Source: Hondaea fermentalgiana (taxonomy: Eukaryota; Sar; Bigyra; Thraustochytrida; Thraustochytriidae). Taken from it: a stretch of 64,000 nucleotides of DNA. The first letter of the stretch is position 1. Each line of letters opens with the position of its first letter. The stretch is taken from positions 595 through 64,594 of the forward strand of contig NPFB01000117.1 in assembly GCA_014084085.1 (NCBI GenBank), given 5' to 3'. Positions 29,401 to 64,000 of the stretch are shown one piece after another. The position numbers and the translations under genes are program-made. Below the pieces are notes generated by a model. That model worked only from the letters and a program-made list of their open reading frames with translations, searched no databases and was not told the DNA's origin.

Positions 29401-30327
29401 ATGCTTGAGGATGACCCGTACGACCACCGCTTCAAGCTTGTTTTGATTGGGGACTCGATTGGCAAGACCAGGTACGTCATGCGCCAAGAAAGAATTGAGA
29501 AAAGAACGCACACGTAGTCAGGTTGCTTGCTTTCTATTATTTTCTTACTGCAGACAGACTTGTTGCTTTCCTTCTTGCAGGCAAGAGACTGATTGCTTGC
29601 TTTCTCGCGATAGATGGCTTGCTTTCTCGCTGGTTGTGTCTGCATGTGTGCACGAATGGGCGCGATGACGCTGTTCGAGATGACTGGAGTAAATGGATCA
29701 ACTGACTGGCCGACTGACGTTTTCTTTTCGCACAGCATTCTGCTCCAATTTACGGATGGAACCTTTGCCGCAGATCAAAATGCCACCTGTGGCGTAGACT
29801 TTAAAGTGAAAATGCTGCAACAGGGAGGCAAGACGATCAAGGCAACGATTTGGGATATGGCGGGCCAGGAAAGGTTTCGCACGATCATGAGCGCGTACTG
29901 CCGCGACACACAAGGGATTATCCTCATGTACGATGTCACGCATCGTGGCTCTTTCGAGGGGGTGAATCAGTGGCTCGAGGAAGTCGGCAAGTGTACTCCA
30001 GGTGGCACCAAGGACCCAATTCTTGTTCTTGTAGGCAACAAGGCTGACCTTGAGGAGCAACGAAGGGTGTCTACGCGAGAAGGTGAGGCATGTGCGCGTC
30101 AGCGTGGCATGCTCTTTTTCGAGACAAGCGCGAAAACAAAGCTCGGCGTCAAGCAGATGTTCCAAGAGCTCGTCCAAAAGATCCTGGACAGTCCAACACT
30201 TCTGGAGGGGACTGTTGCTAGCGGCGGAGCTTCTCGTTCAGGTGGAATGTCCTCGTCAAACATGGAGGCAGGCCGGACTCAGGCCGAAGAGGAGGGCAAT
30301 GATTTCTGCTTGTGCAGAATTACATAG
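29401..30327 (+). pseudogene. Rab18-like GTPase, tandem copy 1, with damaged P-loop and lost prenylation end
   Basis: Exon 1 29401-29471, exon 2 29736-30327, donor GTACGT, acceptor CACAG; the joined frame is open (220 aa). Relative to the copy at 31776, one codon is missing in the P-loop: GDSIGKT instead of GDSGVGKS, so the GxxxxGK[ST] spacing is broken. DTAGQE has become DMAGQE, YYRGAQG is YCRDTQG, and NKVDL is NKADL. The stop after the C-terminal CC is lost, giving FCLCRIT, so the Rab prenylation motif is gone. It may be a decaying copy or an expressed nucleotide-binding-deficient variant. The intron and first part of exon 2 are nearly identical to copy 2. Confidence 0.75.
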
Positions 30328-31775: not shown

Positions 31776-32689
31776 ATGCTCGGGAACGACCCGTATGACC
31801 ATCTCTTCAAGCTTCTTTTGATTGGGGACTCGGGCGTGGGCAAGTCCAGGTACGTCGTGCGCGCAGAAAGAAATGAGAAAAGAGCGCACATGTAGTCAGG
31901 TTGCTTGCTTTCTATTATTTTCTTCTGCAGACAGACTTGTTGCTTTCCTTCATGCAGGCAAGTGACTGATTGCTTGCTTTCTCGCGATAGATGGCTTGCT
32001 TTCTCGCTGGTTGTGTCTGCATGTGCGCACGAATGGGCGCGATGACGCTGTTCGAGATGACTGGAGTAAATGGATCAACTGACTGGCCGACTGACGTTTT
32101 CTTTTCGCACAGCATTCTGCTCCAATTTACGGATGGAACCTTTGCCGCAGATCAAAATGCCACCTGTGGCGTAGACTTTAAAGTGAAAATGCTGCAACAG
32201 GGAGGCAAGACGATCAAGGCAACGATTTGGGATACGGCGGGCCAGGAAAGGTTTCGCACGCTCACGAGCTCGTACTACCGCGGCGCCCAAGGCATCATCC
32301 TCACGTACGATGTCACGCGACGTGACACGTTTGAGCACGTGAATCAGTGGCTCGAGGAAGTCGGCAAGTATACTCCTGGCGGCACCAAGGACGTAATTTT
32401 GGTCCTTGTAGGCAACAAGGTGGACCTCGAGGAGCAACGAAGGGTGTCTACGCGGGAAGGTGAGGCATGGGCGCGTCAGCGTGGCATGCTCTTTATCGAG
32501 ACAAGCGCGAAAACAAAGCTCGGCGTCAAGCAGGTGTTCCAAGAGCTCGTTCAAAAGATTCTGGACAGCCCAACACTTCTCGAGGGCACTGCTGCCAGCG
32601 GCGGAGCTTCTCGTCCTGGTGGAATGTCCTCGTCAAACCAGGGGGCAGACCTCACCCAGGCCGAAGAGGAGGGCAATGGTTGCTGCTAG
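31776..32689 (+). CDS. RAB18: Rab18-like small GTPase (intact copy)
   Basis: Exon 1 31776-31849 and exon 2 32113-32689 (GTACGT...CACAG), 216 aa. All G-motifs are intact: GDSGVGKS (about 17-24), the DTAGQERFRTLTSSYYRGAQG switch II, YDVTRRDTF (typical of Rab18), NKVDL and ETSAKT. It ends in GCC for double geranylgeranylation. Rab18 acts at the ER, lipid droplets and Golgi-ER transport. The intron falls directly after the P-loop. A second, degenerate copy lies 2.4 kb upstream. An in-frame ATG inside the intron (31991) is not the start because it would skip the P-loop. Confidence 0.92.
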
Positions 32690-34237: not shown

Positions 34238-35381
34238 CGTCTCCTCGGCGCAGCGCAGCGCAGCGAACCTCCAGGCGGTCGAGTCCGAGCGCTTTTGCGC
34301 GGCCTCCCTCCGCCGCCTTGCCGCGCTGCTGCGCGCTGCTTCTCTCTAGCCGCCTTTTCGCGGCCCTTCGCGGCGCCATTCCGCACTTGCGCGCCGCCCA
34401 TACCCCACTTGCCGCGCCGCCTATACCCCACTTGCCGCGCGCCGCCGCAGTCCCGAGCAGCCCCGCCGCAGTGCGCGCGCCGCCTTAACCCGCGCCGCGC
34501 AAGTGCAACTATTCCCGCGCCCGCACTTTCGCAGCCGCTCCACGCAAATGCACTATTCGCGCCGCGCCCGCCCACTTAAGGCGGCTTCCGCGCGCGAGGC
34601 GCCGCGCCCGCGCGCAAAGCGGCCTATTCACAGCCTTAGGTCCCTTCCCGCCCGCCGCGAGACGCGGGGGTGTGCACTCGGCGCGAGAGGGTCCGGAGCG
34701 GGACCTCGTGTCACGGTTTTTCGCCATCTTGGCTCGCGCCCGCGCCCGCCCGCCCGCTCGCTCGCTCGCTCGCTCCGGGCGNNNNNNNNNNNNNNNNNNN
34801 NNNNNNNNNNNNNNNNNNNNNNNNNNNNNNNNNNNNNNNNNNNNNNNNNNNNNNNNNNNNNNNNNNNNNNNNNNNNNNNNNCGGGCGAGGCGAAGGCGGG
34901 CAGAGAGGGAGGGCCTCCTCGGAAGTCCTTGCTGGGCGAGGCGAACGCCCGCCCCCGGGCCCTCGGGAAGCGCAGGCGCGCCGGGAGGAGGGAGGCGAGA
35001 GACGCTCGCCCGAGGCCGCGCGGACGGACGCGGCCGTGCGGACCGCCTTTCTGGGAGGCCTCTCCGCACGCCTGTCGCAAGCGGGCGAGCGAGCGAGCAG
35101 GCAGGCAAGGCAAGGCTGCGAGCCAGCCCAGGCACCATATCGCTCCTTGTCTCCAGGTCCAGAGCAAGCAAGCACGAAGCAAGCACGAAGCACGCACGCA
35201 CGCACGCACGCACGCGAAACCAAGTGCTCCAGCGCGTAAGAGCCTGAGACGGACACGCCGAGCGAGCGAGCCAGACAGACAGGCCAGCGCCAGGGTTCCA
35301 AAGCACAAGCGAACGAGAAAGCGTTAAAGCGAGAGCGACGCAGGCACCATTTTCTGGTTCTCGTGCTGCCGGCCCCCCTTC
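34238..35381. promoter_or_regulatory. GC-rich divergent region with assembly gap
   Basis: Between the Tim17-like gene (minus) and the LRR-PP2C gene (plus). Very GC-rich, with GCTC/GAGC runs flanking the gap, CGCACGCA repeats at about 35192-35215 and GAAGCAAGCAC repeats. From 34551 on there is no ATG on the plus strand (gap aside). Open frames across the N run are meaningless. Confidence 0.4.
34782..34881. other. Assembly gap (100 N)
   Basis: Exactly 100 N, the usual placeholder for unknown size, between CGCTCGCT-type repeats that probably broke the assembly. Confidence 0.99.
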
Positions 35382-54000: not shown

Positions 54001-55551
54001 TTTCTGCTTTGCTTCGCCGCCCACGTCTCGCGCCCCAATTCGAAGCTAGCTCTCTCAGCCTCTTCTCGCCTCCCTGTCGTTCTCACCGTAGAGCGGAGCG
54101 AGCCCCTTCCGCCTCGCTGCCAGCACGCACGCACGCACGCACGCACGCACGCGCCTGCGCCGCCGTGCGCCGCGTCCTCAACGTCGCTGTTCTCCCGGGT
54201 CCTCCCTCCTCCTGTGCCCTCCGCCGCGGCGCCTTTCTCGTTTCCCCCGCGCGAGCTCCGTCTCCACGCGCCCGCGCGGCGGCCCGCCCGCGTCGCGCCG
54301 GCCCGCGCAGCGTCTCCGTTCTGCCGGCGCTGCTCCCGCGCGAGCTCGAGCTCGAGCGCGCCGTCCTCGCGGTCCTCGTTCGCCGCGTCGAGGCCGCCGT
54401 CGTGCGCACAGTCCGGGTCGGAGGGGCNNNNNNNNNNNNNNNNNNNNNNNNNNNNNNNNNNNNNNNNNNNNNNNNNNNNNNNNNNNNNNNNNNNNNNNNN
54501 NNNNNNNNNNNNNNNNNNNNNNNNNNNGGGGACGCCCGCCGCGGGTCCCCGCAGAGCTTCGCCCCTGCTGCGCCGCCCAGTGGGCGCCGGGCGGCGGCTG
54601 CGGGTCTCTTCCGGCCTTCTCTTTCTTCTCGCCCGACGCGCCAGACGAGGGCGGCGAGGGCGGCGAGGGCGCTTGGTTTGGGGTCGCGGAGAACGCTGGG
54701 GGGGGGGAGAGGGAGGAGAAGGACGAGGCGATGTGCTTGTGTCAGAGGGCGAGGTCGGAGGAGACGCGGCGAGGCGAGGCGAAAGAAAGAAACGACTCTC
54801 CATATTGCGCTGACGAGGAAGCCTGTCAGTGAGCGCAGCAACCAGCGGCCAAAGCGAGGACCATCAACCAATCACCCTGTGCCACAAGAAACTTTGGAGG
54901 GTCAAGGATCGCGACGACGGAAAGAAACCGCAAGCCCGAAGGCAGCTTGGTAGGTCTCAGCTCCGGGCGTCGGCATTGTCGCGCTTTGAGCTACAGCCAG
55001 CTGGTCGTCATGGTGGGTGGCATGGGTGGCGGCGAGCGCCTCAAGCATCCCTTTCGTAACCGAAGAACCGTGATGCAGGAGAAGCAGCCAGGCTACCACT
55101 GCCAGGTGCACTGCTGCCACTGTCGCGTCGGAAGGGCCGCAGCAAGCAGCGGCACGGGGACCCGCGTGACCTTTCGTCATTTGCAGACCGTGCAAAGAGC
55201 GGAGAGCCTGAGCTACGGCTGCTGAACTCGATGGGCCACTATGAGGAGCCGGCTGCATGGTGGAAGGGGAAGGAGCTCTCCTTAAATGGCGCGACGCTGA
55301 TGAGGATGAACTCTGTTTGACAACGGCCAGCGGCTGTCTGCCATGCAGTTGCAGCTTGTCTACCGTTCAGTTTGGAGGTCTGTACACGTACACACTCCAT
55401 TGCTGGGAAACATAACTGGGGAACAAGAAAAAGTTTAATCGCTCGGACCGACTGTGCTCTCGAAGCCCACGCCGATACAAATCAAGAGACACTGAGAAAG
55501 CCAAGAAAGAAACGTATATTGCATTTTCTGGTAATAATGATCATGGCGCCG
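54001..55551. other. GC-rich region with assembly gap, no supported gene
   Basis: About 1.5 kb between a minus gene start and the 3' end of the SUFU-like gene. Contains a CACG repeat (54120-54150), the 100-N gap and then ordinary sequence. ORFs here (for example 54829-55059 and 54902-55258) have no recognised features. A missing 5' exon of the PT-repeat gene could be in the gap. Confidence 0.4.
54428..54527. other. Assembly gap (100 N)
   Basis: Exactly 100 N, flanked by GC-rich sequence. Confidence 0.99.
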
Positions 55552-56691
55552 CTACTCATCCCGTGTCTGGAACTCTGCGAGAGATATGCGGTGGTGAGAT
55601 TTATCCTTGGTGAATTGCTTGACGAGCGCCAGGCGCGCATTGATGGCTTCCTGCTGCGTTGTAGCGCCCAGGATCGAGTCAAGCTGATTCTCATCGAGTA
55701 AACGGAGCGCAATGAGTGACGCTTGACCCGTGGGAAGCTTGATGCGAGAAGGAAGATCTGGTGCCTTGGAGTTGAAAAGAAGCACTCCAACTGTGCCCCG
55801 ATGCGTAATAAGTTCCGCAGGAGTGCCTTCTGGCAAACTCTGTTGCGGTATTTCAAGCGACATGCACCCCTCAAGTCGCCGAAAAAGAGGTAGGAAATCT
55901 CGTCCTTGCGCCGCCAAATTCTGCGCAATGTGGTCGACAAGTAGTGCTTCCCATGTGAACACCCAATCACTCTCAGTAAAACGCTCCAGCGAGTCCTCTT
56001 CGTCCACAAACTCGCCATAAACTTCATATCCAAACCCAAGACTACGGTCGACGCCTTCACGGTTGCTCCCAGCTCTTGCCCCTGCCCCAGCACCAGCACC
56101 ATCGTCGTCGTAGTCGCGATCGTCATCGATGTCGTCACCGTTCCCAATGGCGCCTCGGTAGTTTCCGCTCCTTGGCGGAGCGCAAGGGTCGCTGAGGCCG
56201 TCCGAAATGATGAGCGCCGAAGCGCGGGGACCGTTGAGCAGACATCGGTGCGCCTGATGTTCGCTGGGCCACGAGGCCGCACCAAAGTACGTCGGGCTCA
56301 CCAGCTTGGCCATGACATTCTGCAAGAGCTGATAGCCCCCCTTTTTCTCCATTTTGCGGTACATTTTGTCCTTGGCCGCGAGGACCTCGTCCCGGAGCGC
56401 CTCGTACTCGCGGGTGATCCTGGCATCTTCGTCTTCATCTCCGTCTTCTGCGTCGCCATCCACAAAGTCACCTCTCCTCGCGAGCCTCGCCTCTCGTTCT
56501 TCTTGGGAACCCACAAAGGTGAGCTCGTTGCTCGCGTCGCTTTCGGCGTACGCGGCGTCGTTGTTGTCGTCGTCGTCGTCCTCGTCGTGATCGTGATCGT
56601 GGTCTGCGCCATGATACGCCCCCAGCGCGCGCGCGTCTCCGGCGCGAGGTCCGCGGCCCAGGTCGTCCGGGTGGCTCGCGCAGCCTCCCAT
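55552..56691 (-). CDS. Lipid-anchored (MGGCAS) protein, SUFU-like C-terminal domain, unknown role
   Basis: 379 aa. The N-terminus MGGCASH has Gly2 for N-myristoylation and Cys4 for palmitoylation, as in many peripheral plasma-membrane proteins. About 20-95 is acidic and disordered. About 105-375 is globular: KKGGYQLLQNVMAKLV, ALIISDGLSDPC, GFGYEVYGEF, WVFTWEALLVDHIAQNLAAQGRDF, VGVLLFNSKAPDLPSRIKLP and IALRLLDENQLDSIL. The order (a G-[FY]-E-hydrophobic strand, helix, then a VxVLL...LP strand pair) resembles the suppressor-of-fused (SUFU) domain also found in bacteria; this is a tentative match. Single exon, clean start and stop. The neighbouring genes also carry lipid-modification signals. Confidence 0.65.
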   Translation of the reverse strand: MGGCASHPDDLGRGPRAGDARALGAYHGADHDHDHDEDDDDDNNDAAYAESDASNELTFVGSQEEREARLARRGDFVDGDAEDGDEDEDARITREYEALRDEVLAAKDKMYRKMEKKGGYQLLQNVMAKLVSPTYFGAASWPSEHQAHRCLLNGPRASALIISDGLSDPCAPPRSGNYRGAIGNGDDIDDDRDYDDDGAGAGAGARAGSNREGVDRSLGFGYEVYGEFVDEEDSLERFTESDWVFTWEALLVDHIAQNLAAQGRDFLPLFRRLEGCMSLEIPQQSLPEGTPAELITHRGTVGVLLFNSKAPDLPSRIKLPTGQASLIALRLLDENQLDSILGATTQQEAINARLALVKQFTKDKSHHRISLAEFQTRDE

Positions 56692-57057
56692 GCTGCCCCT
56701 CCTCCCCGCGACGGGCTCGCCTCTCTCGCTCGCGGCGCGCGACAGGGCCTCTCCTGTCCGCGCGCCTCGCTCCGCATCAAGTTCTGCGCGCGGAATTCGG
56801 CCTCGCGGCGCTGGGCTGGGACCGGATTTTGGGGTCTTTCGGTAAACGATCGGGTGCCCCTGCTTGGCGTGTCGCTGTCGCCGAGAGGTCCAAGATCGGT
56901 CTCCGCGTCCTTCGCCTCACGGTCGCTCTCGCGGACAACAGCATCTGGGCTGGGCCTGAGAGGCCAAGTTGTTAGGAGTTCATGGCGCAGCAGCGGCGAG
57001 CATTTCATGGCGATGCCAAAACGCTTCTCTGGTTGGAAAGCTGCTCGACCTTGCAAC

Positions 57058-57095
<38 letters not shown>

Positions 57096-57824
57096 TCTTG
57101 GCAATCACTCTCCGGAGAAGAAGAACGTGTTGCCGTTTATTTCCTTTGGTCGGTGAGTATCCGTATAACAATGACTCTGGTCAGTGTGACCACGTATACG
57201 GCCTCCCTCCCGAGCTCTGCGGAGAGCATCGCCGTTGTCGAGATTCGCTGCATCTGGCTGGCTGGTGCAGCTGGCTGTTCACCGACCCTGGCGATGCGTC
57301 ACGCAAGAAACATCATCATCATCATCATGATTATCCCTGTGAGAGGAGAAGCTGGTGTGGCTACCTCAGGCTCCGCTGCCAACAATAGACCCTAAAGAAG
57401 AGAGCAAGGGCTTTGCACTCTGCAATGATTCTCTCTGTCAGTCAATCGATCAGCACCGATCGATTGCTTGCTCGGCCAATCGACCGATCGATCGGACGAT
57501 CGAGCGGCAGCCGCTGGGTCAAGCGAGGTTCCAGAAGTGCATGCTCAACACCGGCCGGCTGGGCCAATTTTGGCCCAGCTTACCTCCCACGTCTACCAGT
57601 ATACATCGCACCGCTAGTTGGCCCAAGGCAACACCTTGGCTACCTGGGCACAGCTTGGTCTGTGAGGTACACCCATCGAGGAATAGCGGACCCCAAGAAT
57701 GCGCAGAGCTTGCGAATCAGACCCGTAACGCGCAGAGGACCCGGACAGGGTGTGCCGCACGTAGTAGCACTACGCCCCTGGCCGCTGTGAAGCGAACGTG
57801 CATGGGCCCGGCCTTGGCCGTACC
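56692..57824. promoter_or_regulatory. Upstream regions, SUFU-like gene and first carbonic anhydrase
   Basis: About 1.1 kb. It contains a CAG repeat (57060-57094), an ATCATC run near 57312-57330 and ATCGATCG-rich sequence at about 57445-57505. No supported gene. Confidence 0.4.
57060..57094. repeat. CAG trinucleotide microsatellite
   Basis: About 11 CAG units (reads CAGCAGCAG on plus). Confidence 0.9.
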
Positions 57825-58571
57825 ATGAGCGCGACACCGCTGCAAATTGTGCCTGGTCATGAGTCAAAGAACAAGATCGCTCCAGAGGGAGCTCGACAAT
57901 CACCCGTCGACATTTGCTCGACAGGGTGCGAGGATCTCCCCAGCGAGAAAAATCCGCGCTCCACGCTCGCCATCAAGGTGCATGCCGTAAAGGGCCTGGT
58001 CAGCTTCAACAACAGCACTCGGAACGTCTCGGTCAAGGTGGGCTCAGGCAATAGCGCCGTCTGCAATGGCAAGAGATTCCAGCTCAAAGAGTTGCACTTT
58101 CACGCGCCCAGCGAGCACACGCTGGACGGTGTTCAACACGACTTGGAGCTGCATCTCGTACACTTTGCGGCGGACTCCAGTAAGCTCGTCTATGCCGTCT
58201 TCTTTGACGTTTCCGAAAATCAAGAAAATTCCTTTTTGCAGTCGCTGTTCGCCCAAGCTCTCCCTGCAGTGCCGCAAACGCAGGCCGTCCCGAGGCGGCT
58301 GGTCTTGCCGAAATTGTTTTGCGAGAACCTTGAGCCCGTCTATGTCTACGCAGGCTCGCTGACCACGGCACCCTACTCTGAAGACGTCACCTGGTGCGTT
58401 TCCAGCCGCGTCCGCACCGTTTCCGCCTCGCAGCTCGCTCGTTTCCGAGTTTCCGTCCCCAGCGACAACAACCGCGACCTCCAGGATCTTTCCGGCCGCG
58501 AGGTATCGCGTTCCGTCTGCGCAGTTCACGCGTCTTCGTCCCAGCCCGGGCCCTGCTGTGTCATTTTCTGA
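57825..58571 (+). CDS. Alpha-carbonic anhydrase with C-terminal CaaX box, copy 1
   Basis: Zinc enzyme for CO2 hydration, 248 aa from ATG 57825 (the frame starts at a GTG at 57798). QSPVDI opens the fold. Zinc ligands are H91, H93 (LHFH) and H110 (ELHLVH). The SEH glutamate and the SLTT threonine are present, though SLTTAPYSE has Ala where alpha-CAs have SLTTPP. The position of the proton-shuttle His64 is Arg66. There is no signal peptide, unlike most alpha-CAs, and the protein ends GPCCVIF, a CaaX prenylation box (C-V-I-F), with an extra Cys for possible palmitoylation. So it is probably cytosolic, membrane-attached. No introns. Confidence 0.9.
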   Translation: MSATPLQIVPGHESKNKIAPEGARQSPVDICSTGCEDLPSEKNPRSTLAIKVHAVKGLVSFNNSTRNVSVKVGSGNSAVCNGKRFQLKELHFHAPSEHTLDGVQHDLELHLVHFAADSSKLVYAVFFDVSENQENSFLQSLFAQALPAVPQTQAVPRRLVLPKLFCENLEPVYVYAGSLTTAPYSEDVTWCVSSRVRTVSASQLARFRVSVPSDNNRDLQDLSGREVSRSVCAVHASSSQPGPCCVIF

Positions 58572-59204
58572 AAGAAAGGCAACGAAAGTAGAAGGTCGAA
58601 GCCTGCCTTCCTTGCAAAAAGGCTCGGTTGGGATGGCGCACTTTGCGTCATAAAGTGCAAAGACCGTGTGTCCCGGGCGGCGGCGCGTACCTCGTTTGCG
58701 CGCCCGCAAACACCCAAACCCGGGCGCGCGCCCGCGAATGCGGTCCCGTTGGGTTCCAAAAGGTCCGGAGAGGCTGTGAGCGAGCGTCTGCACGTGCGGC
58801 CGTTCAGCAGCGGGTGCGGCGGCGAGTCGTACCTTCACTCGCCGTCACAGGAGGCGGTGATCGTGATCGCAGCTCAGCCGGCGCCGACGAAACCCACGCG
58901 CATACAGTCACACACCCGTATTGAAAGAAAGTGTAAAAAACAATGAGATCGAAGATGTATACCAAAAGCCTTGCCGCAACCGCAGCCGGCCCGCGGCGTC
59001 GAAGGTATGTGTCATGGCGTAAGCCCGGATCGAGACTACGGCATACGTAAAGAAAACGTATACGTATGTTCAGGAGCAGCAGCCGAGCCGAGCAGAGCCG
59101 AGCCAGACCATCACCAAAGCAAAGCCGTCACAAAGCAAAGCCAGCCCAAAGTAGAGCCAGCCAAGGGCAAAACCATTAAGCAAACGCACAAAGAATAGCT
59201 GAGC

Positions 59205-59274
<70 letters not shown>

Positions 59275-59281
59275 AGTCAGA
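58572..59281. promoter_or_regulatory. Region between tandem carbonic anhydrases
   Basis: About 710 bp including the copy-1 3' UTR and the copy-2 promoter. CGAGCC/AGCAGAGCC repeats near 59080-59105 and an AAGC microsatellite reach to within 7 bp of the copy-2 ATG. No gene. Confidence 0.45.
59202..59275. repeat. AAGC tetranucleotide microsatellite in the 5' leader of carbonic anhydrase 2
   Basis: About 18 AAGC units. Its right end is 7 bp from the start codon at 59282, so it is part of the transcribed leader if the start is correct. Confidence 0.95.
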
Positions 59282-60094
59282 ATGCAGAGGATGGAGGTTG
59301 TTGCAGCACAACCTGACTTGACGGCGAATTTGCTGGGAACACGGACAGCTGATGCTGCGAGAGCCTCCACGCGAAAAGGACAGCGGCAATCACCTGTGAA
59401 TATTGTCACCGGGCTGTCGGGGAACGACGAAAGGCAACTCGACGGCAAGGCCGACTTCGAGCTCGATGTCGTTCCGGTCAAGGGAATGCTTGACTTTAGC
59501 AATAGCTCACACAACATCACTGTGAAGGTGCCGCCGGGAAACACGGTTGCGCACGAAAACAAACAGTATGAGCTCGTCGAGCTTCACTTTCACTCCCCGA
59601 GCGAGCACACGCTAAACGGTGTTCACCATGACCTCGAGCTTCATCTTGTACACCAGGCAGAAGACTCGAGCAAGTTGGTTTTTGCAGTATTCTTCCACGC
59701 CGATGCGCGCGAGGATGGATTTCTCAAAGCTCTCTTCAAGAGTCGTCTTCCCAAGCAGCATCACTCACACCTGGAGACGCGGAACGTAGATCTACCCAAG
59801 CTTTTTTGCAAGGATAAGGAGCCAATCTTCACGTACGCTGGCTCGCTCACGACGCCTCCGTATTCTGAAGATGTGACGTGGTGTGTGTCTTCACGTGTGC
59901 GTCCTGCATCTGCATCGCAACTCTCTCGTTTTCGCAGTTCTGTTCCTCTCGACAACAATCGAGAAATTCAAAAGCTTAAAGGTCGCCGAGTTGTACGCTC
60001 CGTTTGTGCTGTAAAGTGCAACAACGAGTCTTCATCGCAGCCCCGCTCCTCCGTCGCCTCAATGAGCGCAGACGCGTGCTGCGCCATCAGCTAG
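59282..60094 (+). CDS. Alpha-carbonic anhydrase with C-terminal CaaX box, copy 2
   Basis: 270 aa. QSPVNIV, then H102 and H104 (LHFH) and H121 (ELHLVH) for zinc. SLTTPPYSEDVTW is canonical. His77 aligns with the proton-shuttle His64, which copy 1 lacks, so this copy should be the faster enzyme. The N-terminal 30 residues are hydrophilic, with no signal peptide. The end SADACCAIS is a CaaX box (C-A-I-S; Ser favours farnesyl) preceded by a second Cys. Paralogous to copy 1, about 700 bp upstream, in tandem. No introns. Confidence 0.92.
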   Translation: MQRMEVVAAQPDLTANLLGTRTADAARASTRKGQRQSPVNIVTGLSGNDERQLDGKADFELDVVPVKGMLDFSNSSHNITVKVPPGNTVAHENKQYELVELHFHSPSEHTLNGVHHDLELHLVHQAEDSSKLVFAVFFHADAREDGFLKALFKSRLPKQHHSHLETRNVDLPKLFCKDKEPIFTYAGSLTTPPYSEDVTWCVSSRVRPASASQLSRFRSSVPLDNNREIQKLKGRRVVRSVCAVKCNNESSSQPRSSVASMSADACCAIS

Positions 60095-61153: not shown

Positions 61154-64000
61154 TCACATGACCACGCAAGGCTTCCCGGAACGCGCGGGGCGTGTTTTAT
61201 CTGCGGTGTCGCCACCTCCAGTGTGTCGGCTGCTTCCACCGTTTGCCTGCTTCTTCTTTTTTAAAGTCTGGCTCTGATTTTGTTTCCGCTTATCCTGAGC
61301 CTCGATCGGAGGAATGCAGGCGCGAGTGAGGGATGGCATGCAGGATGCCGTGCTCTTGTAAATAAAATCAGAGTCGATCATGGAAATGTACTTGCTGCGC
61401 GCCATGATCTCCTCCACACAATCCTTTTCGTATCCCACACCAAAGACGAGCACGGAAATGCGGCGGCGGTGCGGCGAGCTTGGAAGCAACCAACGTGCAA
61501 ACGCCGCAAGCACACTCTTGCGCGACAAGGAATGTCGGAGGTACTCGATTTCCTGAACATTCGACTTCCATTCAAAAGTCGCGGGCGAGCGAAAGGGCTG
61601 CAGGCTGATCGCATCCCAGAGGCGATCGGCTTGTTGTCGGATACTACGTTCCTCTTCCAACTTTGAACGCGCGAGTGCGCATACATTTTTGTGAAAATCC
61701 TCAATGTCCATCTCCGCCAGCCCCTTGTAAAAATCTGCGAGAAAATCGTCGACATACATGGCAATCTCGGGCGGCGTGAACTTGTTCGATGTCACCTCGA
61801 CAAGCATGCCTAACACGCCACGCACCGATACAACGGAAGCTTGCACCATGTAGCCAAGCTGCAGCTGCGTGCGCAGCACTGCAAAAATTGGCTCCTTGAT
61901 GAGCAGCTCAATGACTTCAGCCAAGAGTCGCACTTCCAAGGTGTCTGGTCCAAGCTGAAAGTACAGGTCCGCCGAATGTCCTACAAACTCGATCGCTTCC
62001 AAAGGATGAACCAGACCCGTGACGGCGCTCCATATATCGCTCTTGTTTGGGTTTACACGGGCCACGGGGACCTTTAGGGCATTTACCTCGGGCAGATTGG
62101 TCTCTGGCAGGCCCTTGTGCGAAAACGGTTTAAGGTGCTTGGCCAGGATACGATACGACTCTTCTGCCATGGAGGCGTCCACGTTACCTGACACACAGGC
62201 GTCCACATTTGATCGTCGCAAAAGCAATGCGGCAAAGTCTGCGACTTCCGAGAACTTTACAAGCATGGTCGCTTTCAACAAAGTCTCGGGTCGCCAGGAA
62301 CCATTGACGAGGACTTTATACATGGCTGACGATACCGGACCTTCGCTCGTGAAGTGAGACGCCTCGTTCTCGTACGTTTGCAAGAGATGCGCACGCTGGG
62401 CGTAACAGACGGCTCTGGGGATCAGACCATACAATGGTTTCATGTCCTCTGATGCCTCGTCACCTTCACCTTGAAGTCCGTATTTGCGTGAGGTGGCTGC
62501 GATGGACGCCAGCATGGCAAAGACCGTGTCCAGCAAAGAAAGGATGCGATCAGTAATGCCAGACACATTGAGGTTGAGTCCCTCATCGTTTGAGCTGATC
62601 GAAACATCCAAGCCAGCGAGCGAGGCTAGAAAGGACTCATTCAAGACAGCTTCGGTCCACAACTGGGCCAGAAGATCGGCCAGCACAACAAATACTGGTT
62701 GCGCACTCAACAATGGGCAAATCAGACGCACGTTGACCTCTGTGCGGGGGACCCGTGTTGCAGAGTTCGACGAGTACCACAAACGCAGTCCGGACATGAA
62801 TCCGCCGCCTTGCGCGCCACTTTCATCAAGATGAACACGCACTAGTGCCGGGGCGACCGATGCCAAATGGGCCTCGTCAAGACTTGGGAAACCCGACCAG
62901 ATGTCTTCTATAATGCTCTCTGCAATCTTGTCCTGCGCCGCGGCTGACGATGAGGAAGAGGTGAAGCTTGGCACAAAGGCGTGCAAAGGTCTGCGGCGTC
63001 GACCAAATCCCGCAAAGGCAGCGGAACTTTGCACTCTGCGCGAGGCTGACGTCATTTCTGTCATTGGTGAAGCGGTTCCCGCGATTCGTAGCTCGAGACC
63101 CGGCGTGTCCACTTCAACCCGCTTTTGGCCTGCTGCCCAACCGTCGCCAAGTAGCTGATGCCAGGCCAAAAGACCGCTGCCGTAATCTACCAAGATCCTC
63201 ATACGCGTAATGTCATGGTATATCACAGTGCCCCGTTGAGTCTCTGGTCTTTCCTCAACCGGTCCGCGCAATAGTTCCGACTCGGTGAGCACGACTTGTG
63301 GATCTGAAATGCCATCGACCAGCAGATTGTTCCATGTCAATGTATCGCGCAGCTTCGCACTCACGTGTCGCCGCACGGGCTTGCACTCGGAAATGACAAC
63401 TTGCGTTCCCCAAAGCAAACCCTGCTCGTCTTCATTCATCTTGAGGCGTTCTGAAGCACCCAGCAGGGAAAAGTCGTTGGGAATAAAGGGATTGCGTTCG
63501 GGCAATTGAAGAATACTGGCATGAACAGCGGTGCGATCCCTGATACACCCGCGCTCGAGCTGGTCATCGAACATTCCCTTCAAGGGGGGTTTGGAACTTT
63601 CGACCTGTCCTTCGTCAAGATCGAAATTACTCGGTTCCGTTGTGTTCTCGTTCTTTGAAACGCCTTTCTTTTCTCCGTCATTCGCGTCGGATTCAACACG
63701 AGCGATCGTCTGCGAACCATCGAGCAGGCTGTTCCAAAGGTCGATAACGTCTTGGGGCAAAAAGCGAGCCCAATAACGGGTTTGTGTGTATTGATCAATG
63801 CGGACAATAACGTCTGAATCGTACACTCTGCGAAGGGGCGCTGTGCGGCTTTCCATTCGAGGAGACAACAATTTTCGCTCCGGGCCCCACAGACTGCTTT
63901 GCAAGTCGACGCGAGCAAGTTCGGGACGCAGGTGATTCAAGATCGTCTCGACTTGGTCTGGATCCCACTCGAGCCGCGACGACGGGTCGAGGATCCAATC
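61154..64000 (-). CDS. M16 metallopeptidase (insulysin/nardilysin-type), N-terminal part outside the window, CaaX end
   Basis: The frame enters from the right edge and gives the last 948 residues. It begins within the second M16 domain (PDQVETILNHLRPELARV, compare the LRPE motif of insulysin). It continues through the pseudo-active domains 3-4, with characteristic LGYMVQASVVSVRGVLGMLVEV and EVRLLAEVIELLIKEPIFAVLRTQLQLGY. The catalytic HxxEH lies outside the window. Insulysins degrade small peptides inside a closed chamber. The last 50 residues are unusual: a basic, disordered tail (TLKKKKQANGG, RPARSGK) ends in CVVM, a CaaX box like those of Ras proteins. Insertions of acidic sequence near the start (KKGVSKNENTTEPSN) are also extra. 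No introns seen. Confidence 0.88.
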   Translation of the reverse strand, partial: DWILDPSSRLEWDPDQVETILNHLRPELARVDLQSSLWGPERKLLSPRMESRTAPLRRVYDSDVIVRIDQYTQTRYWARFLPQDVIDLWNSLLDGSQTIARVESDANDGEKKGVSKNENTTEPSNFDLDEGQVESSKPPLKGMFDDQLERGCIRDRTAVHASILQLPERNPFIPNDFSLLGASERLKMNEDEQGLLWGTQVVISECKPVRRHVSAKLRDTLTWNNLLVDGISDPQVVLTESELLRGPVEERPETQRGTVIYHDITRMRILVDYGSGLLAWHQLLGDGWAAGQKRVEVDTPGLELRIAGTASPMTEMTSASRRVQSSAAFAGFGRRRRPLHAFVPSFTSSSSSAAAQDKIAESIIEDIWSGFPSLDEAHLASVAPALVRVHLDESGAQGGGFMSGLRLWYSSNSATRVPRTEVNVRLICPLLSAQPVFVVLADLLAQLWTEAVLNESFLASLAGLDVSISSNDEGLNLNVSGITDRILSLLDTVFAMLASIAATSRKYGLQGEGDEASEDMKPLYGLIPRAVCYAQRAHLLQTYENEASHFTSEGPVSSAMYKVLVNGSWRPETLLKATMLVKFSEVADFAALLLRRSNVDACVSGNVDASMAEESYRILAKHLKPFSHKGLPETNLPEVNALKVPVARVNPNKSDIWSAVTGLVHPLEAIEFVGHSADLYFQLGPDTLEVRLLAEVIELLIKEPIFAVLRTQLQLGYMVQASVVSVRGVLGMLVEVTSNKFTPPEIAMYVDDFLADFYKGLAEMDIEDFHKNVCALARSKLEEERSIRQQADRLWDAISLQPFRSPATFEWKSNVQEIEYLRHSLSRKSVLAAFARWLLPSSPHRRRISVLVFGVGYEKDCVEEIMARSKYISMIDSDFIYKSTASCMPSLTRACIPPIEAQDKRKQNQSQTLKKKKQANGGSSRHTGGGDTADKTRPARSGKPCVVM

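Follow-up and report, generated by a model that had tools for sequence, protein, structure and literature searches.

The well-known membrane-bound α-carbonic anhydrases (αCAs) face the cell exterior or a lumen, and among the human enzymes CA IV, CA IX and CA XIV are glycosylphosphatidylinositol (GPI)-anchored or transmembrane proteins that face outside the cell. A 64,000-nucleotide stretch of the genome of the thraustochytrid Hondaea fermentalgiana (contig NPFB01000117.1, hereafter the window) contains two tandem αCA genes, CA1 and CA2, whose products end in putative CaaX prenylation boxes. As predicted from their sequences, an ordinary αCA domain would here be joined to a membrane anchor of a type that, to our knowledge, has not been described for an αCA. 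The preliminary description of this locus had listed known αCAs as generally secreted, periplasmic, GPI-anchored or transmembrane, and as soluble in the cytosol. At least one exception is reported, plant α-CA5 on the stromal surface of the thylakoids (PMC9570166). Taken as a whole, the best explanation for the locus, and one that we regard as likely, is that CA1 and CA2 are cytosolic αCAs that are tethered to a membrane by a prenylated CaaX box and probably a second lipid.

The tandem genes and their C-terminal boxes

CA1 (57825-58571, + strand) is an intact open reading frame (ORF) of 248 amino acids that ends PGPCCVIF before a TGA stop codon, and CA2 (59282-60094, + strand) is an intact ORF of 270 amino acids that ends ADACCAIS before TAG. 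The genes are arranged head to tail on the same strand and are separated by a 710-bp spacer (58572-59281, + strand). Both ORFs thus terminate in the double-Cys CaaX ends that the preliminary description had read from them, CCVIF (codons TGC TGT GTC ATT TTC, 58554-58568, + strand) and CCAIS (TGC TGC GCC ATC AGC, 60077-60091, + strand), with putative boxes CVIF and CAIS. Both start codons have A at −3. Immediately 5′ of the start codon of CA2 is an AGCA-type tandem repeat (∼59203-59275), which is probably part of the CA2 5′ untranslated region.

The two proteins match the αCA family model (PF00194) with E values of 2.1e-29 (CA1, 103.4 bits) and 2e-31 (CA2, 110 bits; cut-off 27), and modelling returned the αCA fold. 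The equivalents of the zinc ligands are kept in both (H91, H93 and H110 in CA1; H102, H104 and H121 in CA2). Across 57 aligned sequences, including CA1 and CA2, H102, H104, H121, E108, T190 and T191 (CA2 numbering) are invariant, and we take these to be the three zinc-binding histidines and the Glu/Thr network. The position of the proton-shuttle histidine is His in CA2, Arg in CA1 and Glu in P0001, a homologue described below. From these features we infer that CA1 and CA2 are zinc-dependent αCAs and would be catalytically active.

CA1 and CA2 are 53-56% identical, depending on the alignment; in one alignment 129 of 245 residues are the same, of which 53 use the same codon. The LWL85 method gives a nonsynonymous divergence (dN) of 0.42 and a synonymous divergence (dS) of 2.4, the latter saturated and the only estimate that stands, as NG86 returned no dS. 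Even the conserved tail positions differ synonymously (second Cys TGT/TGC, Ile ATT/ATC). Given the saturated dS, the dN and the codon differences, the duplication is, by these measures, old and both copies are under purifying selection.

P0001, a protein of 283 amino acids from another assembly, is the closest database relative, far above other matches, with 50% identity to CA2 over 76% of CA2. It ends CCIIS, so that the motif is present in the one close relative that the searched database holds. Absence from all orthologues, which the preliminary description had named as refuting its reading, is to this extent not what is seen. CVIF, CAIS and CIIS all have Cys at −4, an aliphatic a2 residue and a permitted X residue, and in all three proteins a second Cys immediately precedes the box. 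The tails are gapped, differ in length and sequence and are barely alignable apart from SSS and the terminal CC-x-I-x, in keeping with the earlier observation that the motif is kept in C-terminal regions that differ elsewhere.

Searches with CA2, with a CA1, CA2 and P0001 profile, and with these three proteins plus nine oomycete-type relatives gave 299 (E ≤ 0.001), 1480 and 4790 proteins, respectively, and the best 120 of each were pooled into 334 distinct homologues. Cys at −4 occurs in six of these, and a strict box, defined as C-[not DEKRHP]-[ILVM]-X at the C terminus, in P0001 alone. Among 362 distinct ATG-initiated ORFs of at least 100 amino acids from the window and 51 fetched loci, a sample that is GTPase-enriched by construction and in which many ORFs are not genes, 13 end in a strict box: the two αCAs, seven Ras-family or Ykt6 proteins, the neighbouring M16 peptidase gene and three others. 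Cys at −4 is found in four of the 36 longest, little-overlapping ORFs of the window (at least 150 amino acids), namely CA1, CA2, the M16 peptidase gene and a Rab-like gene whose product ends CRIT. CA1 and CA2 are homologous and are not independent draws in such counts. The stronger argument against chance is therefore that P0001 has kept the box across diverged tails.

There are published precedents for two of the three boxes. CVIF is the box of R-Ras2/TC21 and can be a substrate of both farnesyltransferase (FT) and geranylgeranyltransferase I (GGT1) (PMC1175975). Yeast Ras2 ends in CIIS, and its adjacent Cys is typically palmitoylated (PMC11152559). We saw no published precedent for CAIS, and neither CAIS nor CVIF is mentioned in the portion of PMC11152559 considered here. 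The CaaX motif is also described as including a flexible linker of up to 11 small or hydrophilic residues (PMC1175975). The corresponding segments, VHASSSQPGPC, SSVASMSADAC and HSSAADSLASC, consist, as judged by eye, of small and mostly hydrophilic residues. In CA2 a Ser-rich tail (residues 243-265; 60008-60076, + strand) precedes the box, and residues 251-270 have low predicted local distance difference test (pLDDT) scores, with block means of 54 and 59. This suggests that the CA2 tail is probably disordered or flexible and would be accessible as a tether.

N-terminal features and relatives

The maximum 11-residue Kyte-Doolittle hydropathy within the first 45 residues is 0.69 for CA1 and 0.45 for CA2, whereas two signal-peptide controls reach 3.34 and 2.30. 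By this measure neither protein has a signal peptide, as had been noted in the preliminary description. The N-terminal W-Y...W segment that is usual in αCAs is absent from both ORFs, and visual inspection of the three plus-strand frames of 56400-57830 and 58560-59290 revealed no upstream exon encoding it. Likewise, a Met-Gly start of the N-myristoylation type is absent from CA1 (MSAT), CA2 (MQRM) and P0001 (MPRI).

A CaaX box can be used only in the cytosol, and exported αCAs contain a Cys pair that forms a disulfide. This pair was scored as a Cys within eight residues before QSP together with a Cys after TTPP, a pattern that could be applied to 310 of the 334 homologues (24 were unscored). 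Both cysteines are present in 247 of the 310. Neither is present in CA1, CA2 or P0001, as read directly off the alignment, P0001 lying outside the scoring pattern. At the sequence level the missing pair fits, as a hint, life in the reducing cytosol. A disulfide is described as required for activity in Synechococcus EcaA, yet Cyanothece EcaA has two cysteines and is reported to lack redox regulation, with no sign of a disulfide (PMC9570166). Given the latter example, the missing pair was set aside as proof of a cytosolic home. CA1 and CA2 have no signal peptide and seem to be made and kept inside the cell.

In a tree of 65 chosen sequences CA1, CA2 and P0001 come together as a single clade (support 100/98). 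CA1 groups with P0001 (99/84), but a grouping of CA1 with CA2 is not rejected by the approximately unbiased (AU) test (p 0.435). Hence the view that the duplication clearly predates the split from P0001, although favoured by the tree, was set aside. The CaaX clade adjoins a long-branched red-algal protein, P0113 (88/94), whereas the oomycete sequences cluster with P0007 and a Saprolegnia protein, P0261 (98/94). Common descent with the oomycete αCAs, which a shared short N terminus and the sequence TTPPY might suggest, was also set aside: the two are separate clades in the tree, although the AU test does not reject a topology that joins them (p 0.322).

Proposed membrane tethering and its alternatives

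We propose that CA1 and CA2 would be synthesized in the cytosol, where the second Cys of each tail, that of the CVIF and CAIS boxes, would be prenylated by farnesyltransferase and/or geranylgeranyltransferase I, followed by trimming by an Rce1-like protease and methylation by ICMT. The first Cys would probably receive a second lipid. By analogy with yeast Ras2 this would be palmitate, or else a second prenyl group by analogy with Ykt6, whose two C-terminal cysteines receive farnesyl and geranylgeranyl in mammals (PMC12001115). The Ser-rich, probably disordered tail would then tether the catalytic domain to endomembranes or to the plasma membrane, on their cytosolic face, and an αCA held there would speed local exchange between CO2, bicarbonate and H+. 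The first lipid, the second lipid, the membrane concerned, catalysis and any partner are what we infer from the features above. A bicarbonate transporter model (PF00955) gave no match in the genome, nor in any of the controls.

The genome encodes most of the required enzyme machinery. It contains three prenyltransferase β-subunit genes, whose closest solved structures are farnesyltransferase β (E 1.5e-100), geranylgeranyltransferase (GGTase)-I β (6.6e-80) and Rab GGTase β (5.6e-81), together with one match for ICMT, one Rce1-like match and two for GMP_PDE_delta (the PDE6-delta family). Its Ykt6 (L013; E 2.9e-47 to solved YKT6) ends CCTIC. Thirty of 74 Ras-family matches were fetched, and seven of these loci have CaaX ends (CHIM, CLLL, CAIL twice, CIIS, CVIA and CVLL), one ends in CRIT and 12 have Rab-type ends (CC, CCK or CxC). 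Thus, known client families of this genome use the same boxes as the αCAs.

A tail with a double Cys would also suit palmitoylation, and a pair that is only S-palmitoylated, or that is prenylated without subsequent proteolysis and methylation, would give looser or reversible membrane binding. We consider this unlikely, since Cys at −4 and Ile at a2 are kept in CA1, CA2 and P0001, which palmitoylation alone would not need. The boxes might instead be inert, an ancestral C terminus having come to end in CC-x-I-x by happenstance and being hidden from, or ignored by, prenyltransferases; three of the 362 surveyed ORFs do end in a strict box outside the known or proposed client families. However, retention in three diverged sequences, with saturated dS between the copies and tails that otherwise vary, makes this distinctly unlikely, and the low confidence with which the tail is modelled argues that it is probably flexible and accessible rather than buried. 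The gene models could also be incomplete. In that case a further, unseen exon upstream would encode the W-Y...W segment together with a signal peptide, the proteins would be secreted and the box would never meet the cytosolic enzymes. Typical αCAs have the N-terminal segment that CA1 and CA2 lack, and the start of P0001 is itself a database prediction, but no such segment was seen in the three upstream plus-strand frames, P0001 and many oomycete αCAs are similarly short and the Cys pair is absent. We therefore regard secretion by this route as very improbable.

Several results weigh against tethering of cytosolic αCAs by prenylation. The boxes are not preceded by a polybasic stretch. The searched database holds a single close relative and, with the branching of CA1, CA2 and P0001 ambiguous, the number of lineages that have kept the box independently is uncertain. 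Two αCAs were found elsewhere in the genome and both are without a box: L003 has the full-length αCA form with no evident signal peptide and ends STISA, and L004 has a hydrophobic start and ends QAGL (only the best candidates were scored, and further αCAs may exist). The α subunit shared by farnesyltransferase and GGTase-I was not found in an exon-by-exon search with the 32-position PPTA repeat model, a miss that is probably a limit of so short a model. Overall, the CaaX-ended αCA pair is real and probably functional.

No prenylated carbonic anhydrase was found among the titles and abstract beginnings that text searches of an open-access library listed, a scope outside which subscription papers mostly fall. 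A review of human CA modification (PMC7470082) names among its sources a database of residues that are farnesylated or geranylated. In the portion of it that was searched no word begins with 'prenyl' or 'CAAX', and 'farnesyl' appears solely in the line on that database and in one reference. If CA1 and CA2 are prenylated, an αCA would sit at the cytosolic side of a membrane and could supply transporters, carboxylases or proton pumps there. Membrane residence could be tuned by prenyl-binding chaperones or by a palmitoylation cycle, and the handling of CO2 and pH would be tied to isoprenoid supply.

Genomic surroundings and comparison with known systems

The αCA pair is flanked by an M16 (insulysin-like) peptidase gene (61154-64000, − strand) that runs off the window and ends GKPCVVM, an NRas-type box (codons 61157-61168) with a KKKK stretch upstream. 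The M16 paralogues found in the genome end TNKL (L046) and EASDS (L048). The gene on the other flank (55552-56691, − strand) has no Pfam match at E 0.01 and starts MGGCAS, which we take to resemble a myristoylation/palmitoylation signal. Lipid-type ends are thus seen on four genes around this spot (CA1, CA2, the M16 gene and the MGGCAS gene). Elsewhere in the window, two tandem Rab-like genes (29614-30327 and 31991-32689, + strand) are identical in their first 15 residues; one ends FCLCRIT and the other NGCC, as is usual. Runs of 100 N at 34782-34881 and 54428-54527 represent assembly gaps or masked stretches.

Among known proteins, CA1 and CA2 are close to bacterial αCAs (PF00194; for example PDB 6im0, 4x5s and 1kop). 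Many of the listed homologues begin with what resembles a signal peptide and contain the Cys pair. CA1 and CA2 have neither, and differ further in their shorter N terminus and CaaX tail. Human CA IV, CA IX and CA XIV are membrane-associated, as is proposed here, but with a CaaX anchor the enzyme would be on the cytosolic side instead. Plant α-CA5 is likewise placed on a membrane side that is neither extracellular nor lumenal, but it is a plastid protein for which no lipid anchor is mentioned in the portion of PMC9570166 considered. The likeness to Ras2, whose Cys-CIIS end equals the CCIIS of P0001 (PMC11152559), and to R-Ras2/TC21, whose CVIF box equals that of CA1 (PMC1175975), is in the tail only, as both are GTPases. 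Ykt6 has a Cys directly before the CaaX box, as do CA1 and CA2, but its longin and SNARE domains are absent from the αCAs.

A parallel is seen in the short αCAs of the Phytophthora type (P0002-P0006 and others), which share the short N terminus without W-Y...W, TTPPY in place of TTPPC and the lack of the upstream Cys. They have no CaaX box and form a clade separate from the CaaX-ended proteins. An MG...[S/T]K start is present in 14 of the 15 listed proteins labelled Phytophthora or Nothophytophthora (P0002-P0006, P0013, P0018, P0023, P0230, P0231, P0233-P0235 and P0239), the exception being P0229, which has a long extra N terminus. The same start occurs in two unlabelled proteins and in none of the 13 proteins that carry the label of another oomycete, at least two of which are partial. 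We take MGxxx[S/T]K to resemble an N-myristoylation signal. Against this, a strongly K+-induced αCA of Phytophthora parasitica, which may belong to this group, is called putative extracellular (PMC7409359). We give about even chances to the proposal that short cytosolic αCAs have been lipid-anchored to the inner membrane face more than once, by a C-terminal prenyl group (plus palmitate or a second prenyl group) in the lineage of this genome and by an N-terminal myristate in Phytophthora and its kin. If so, membrane-tethered conversion of CO2 and bicarbonate in the cytosol would be a recurring and overlooked design.

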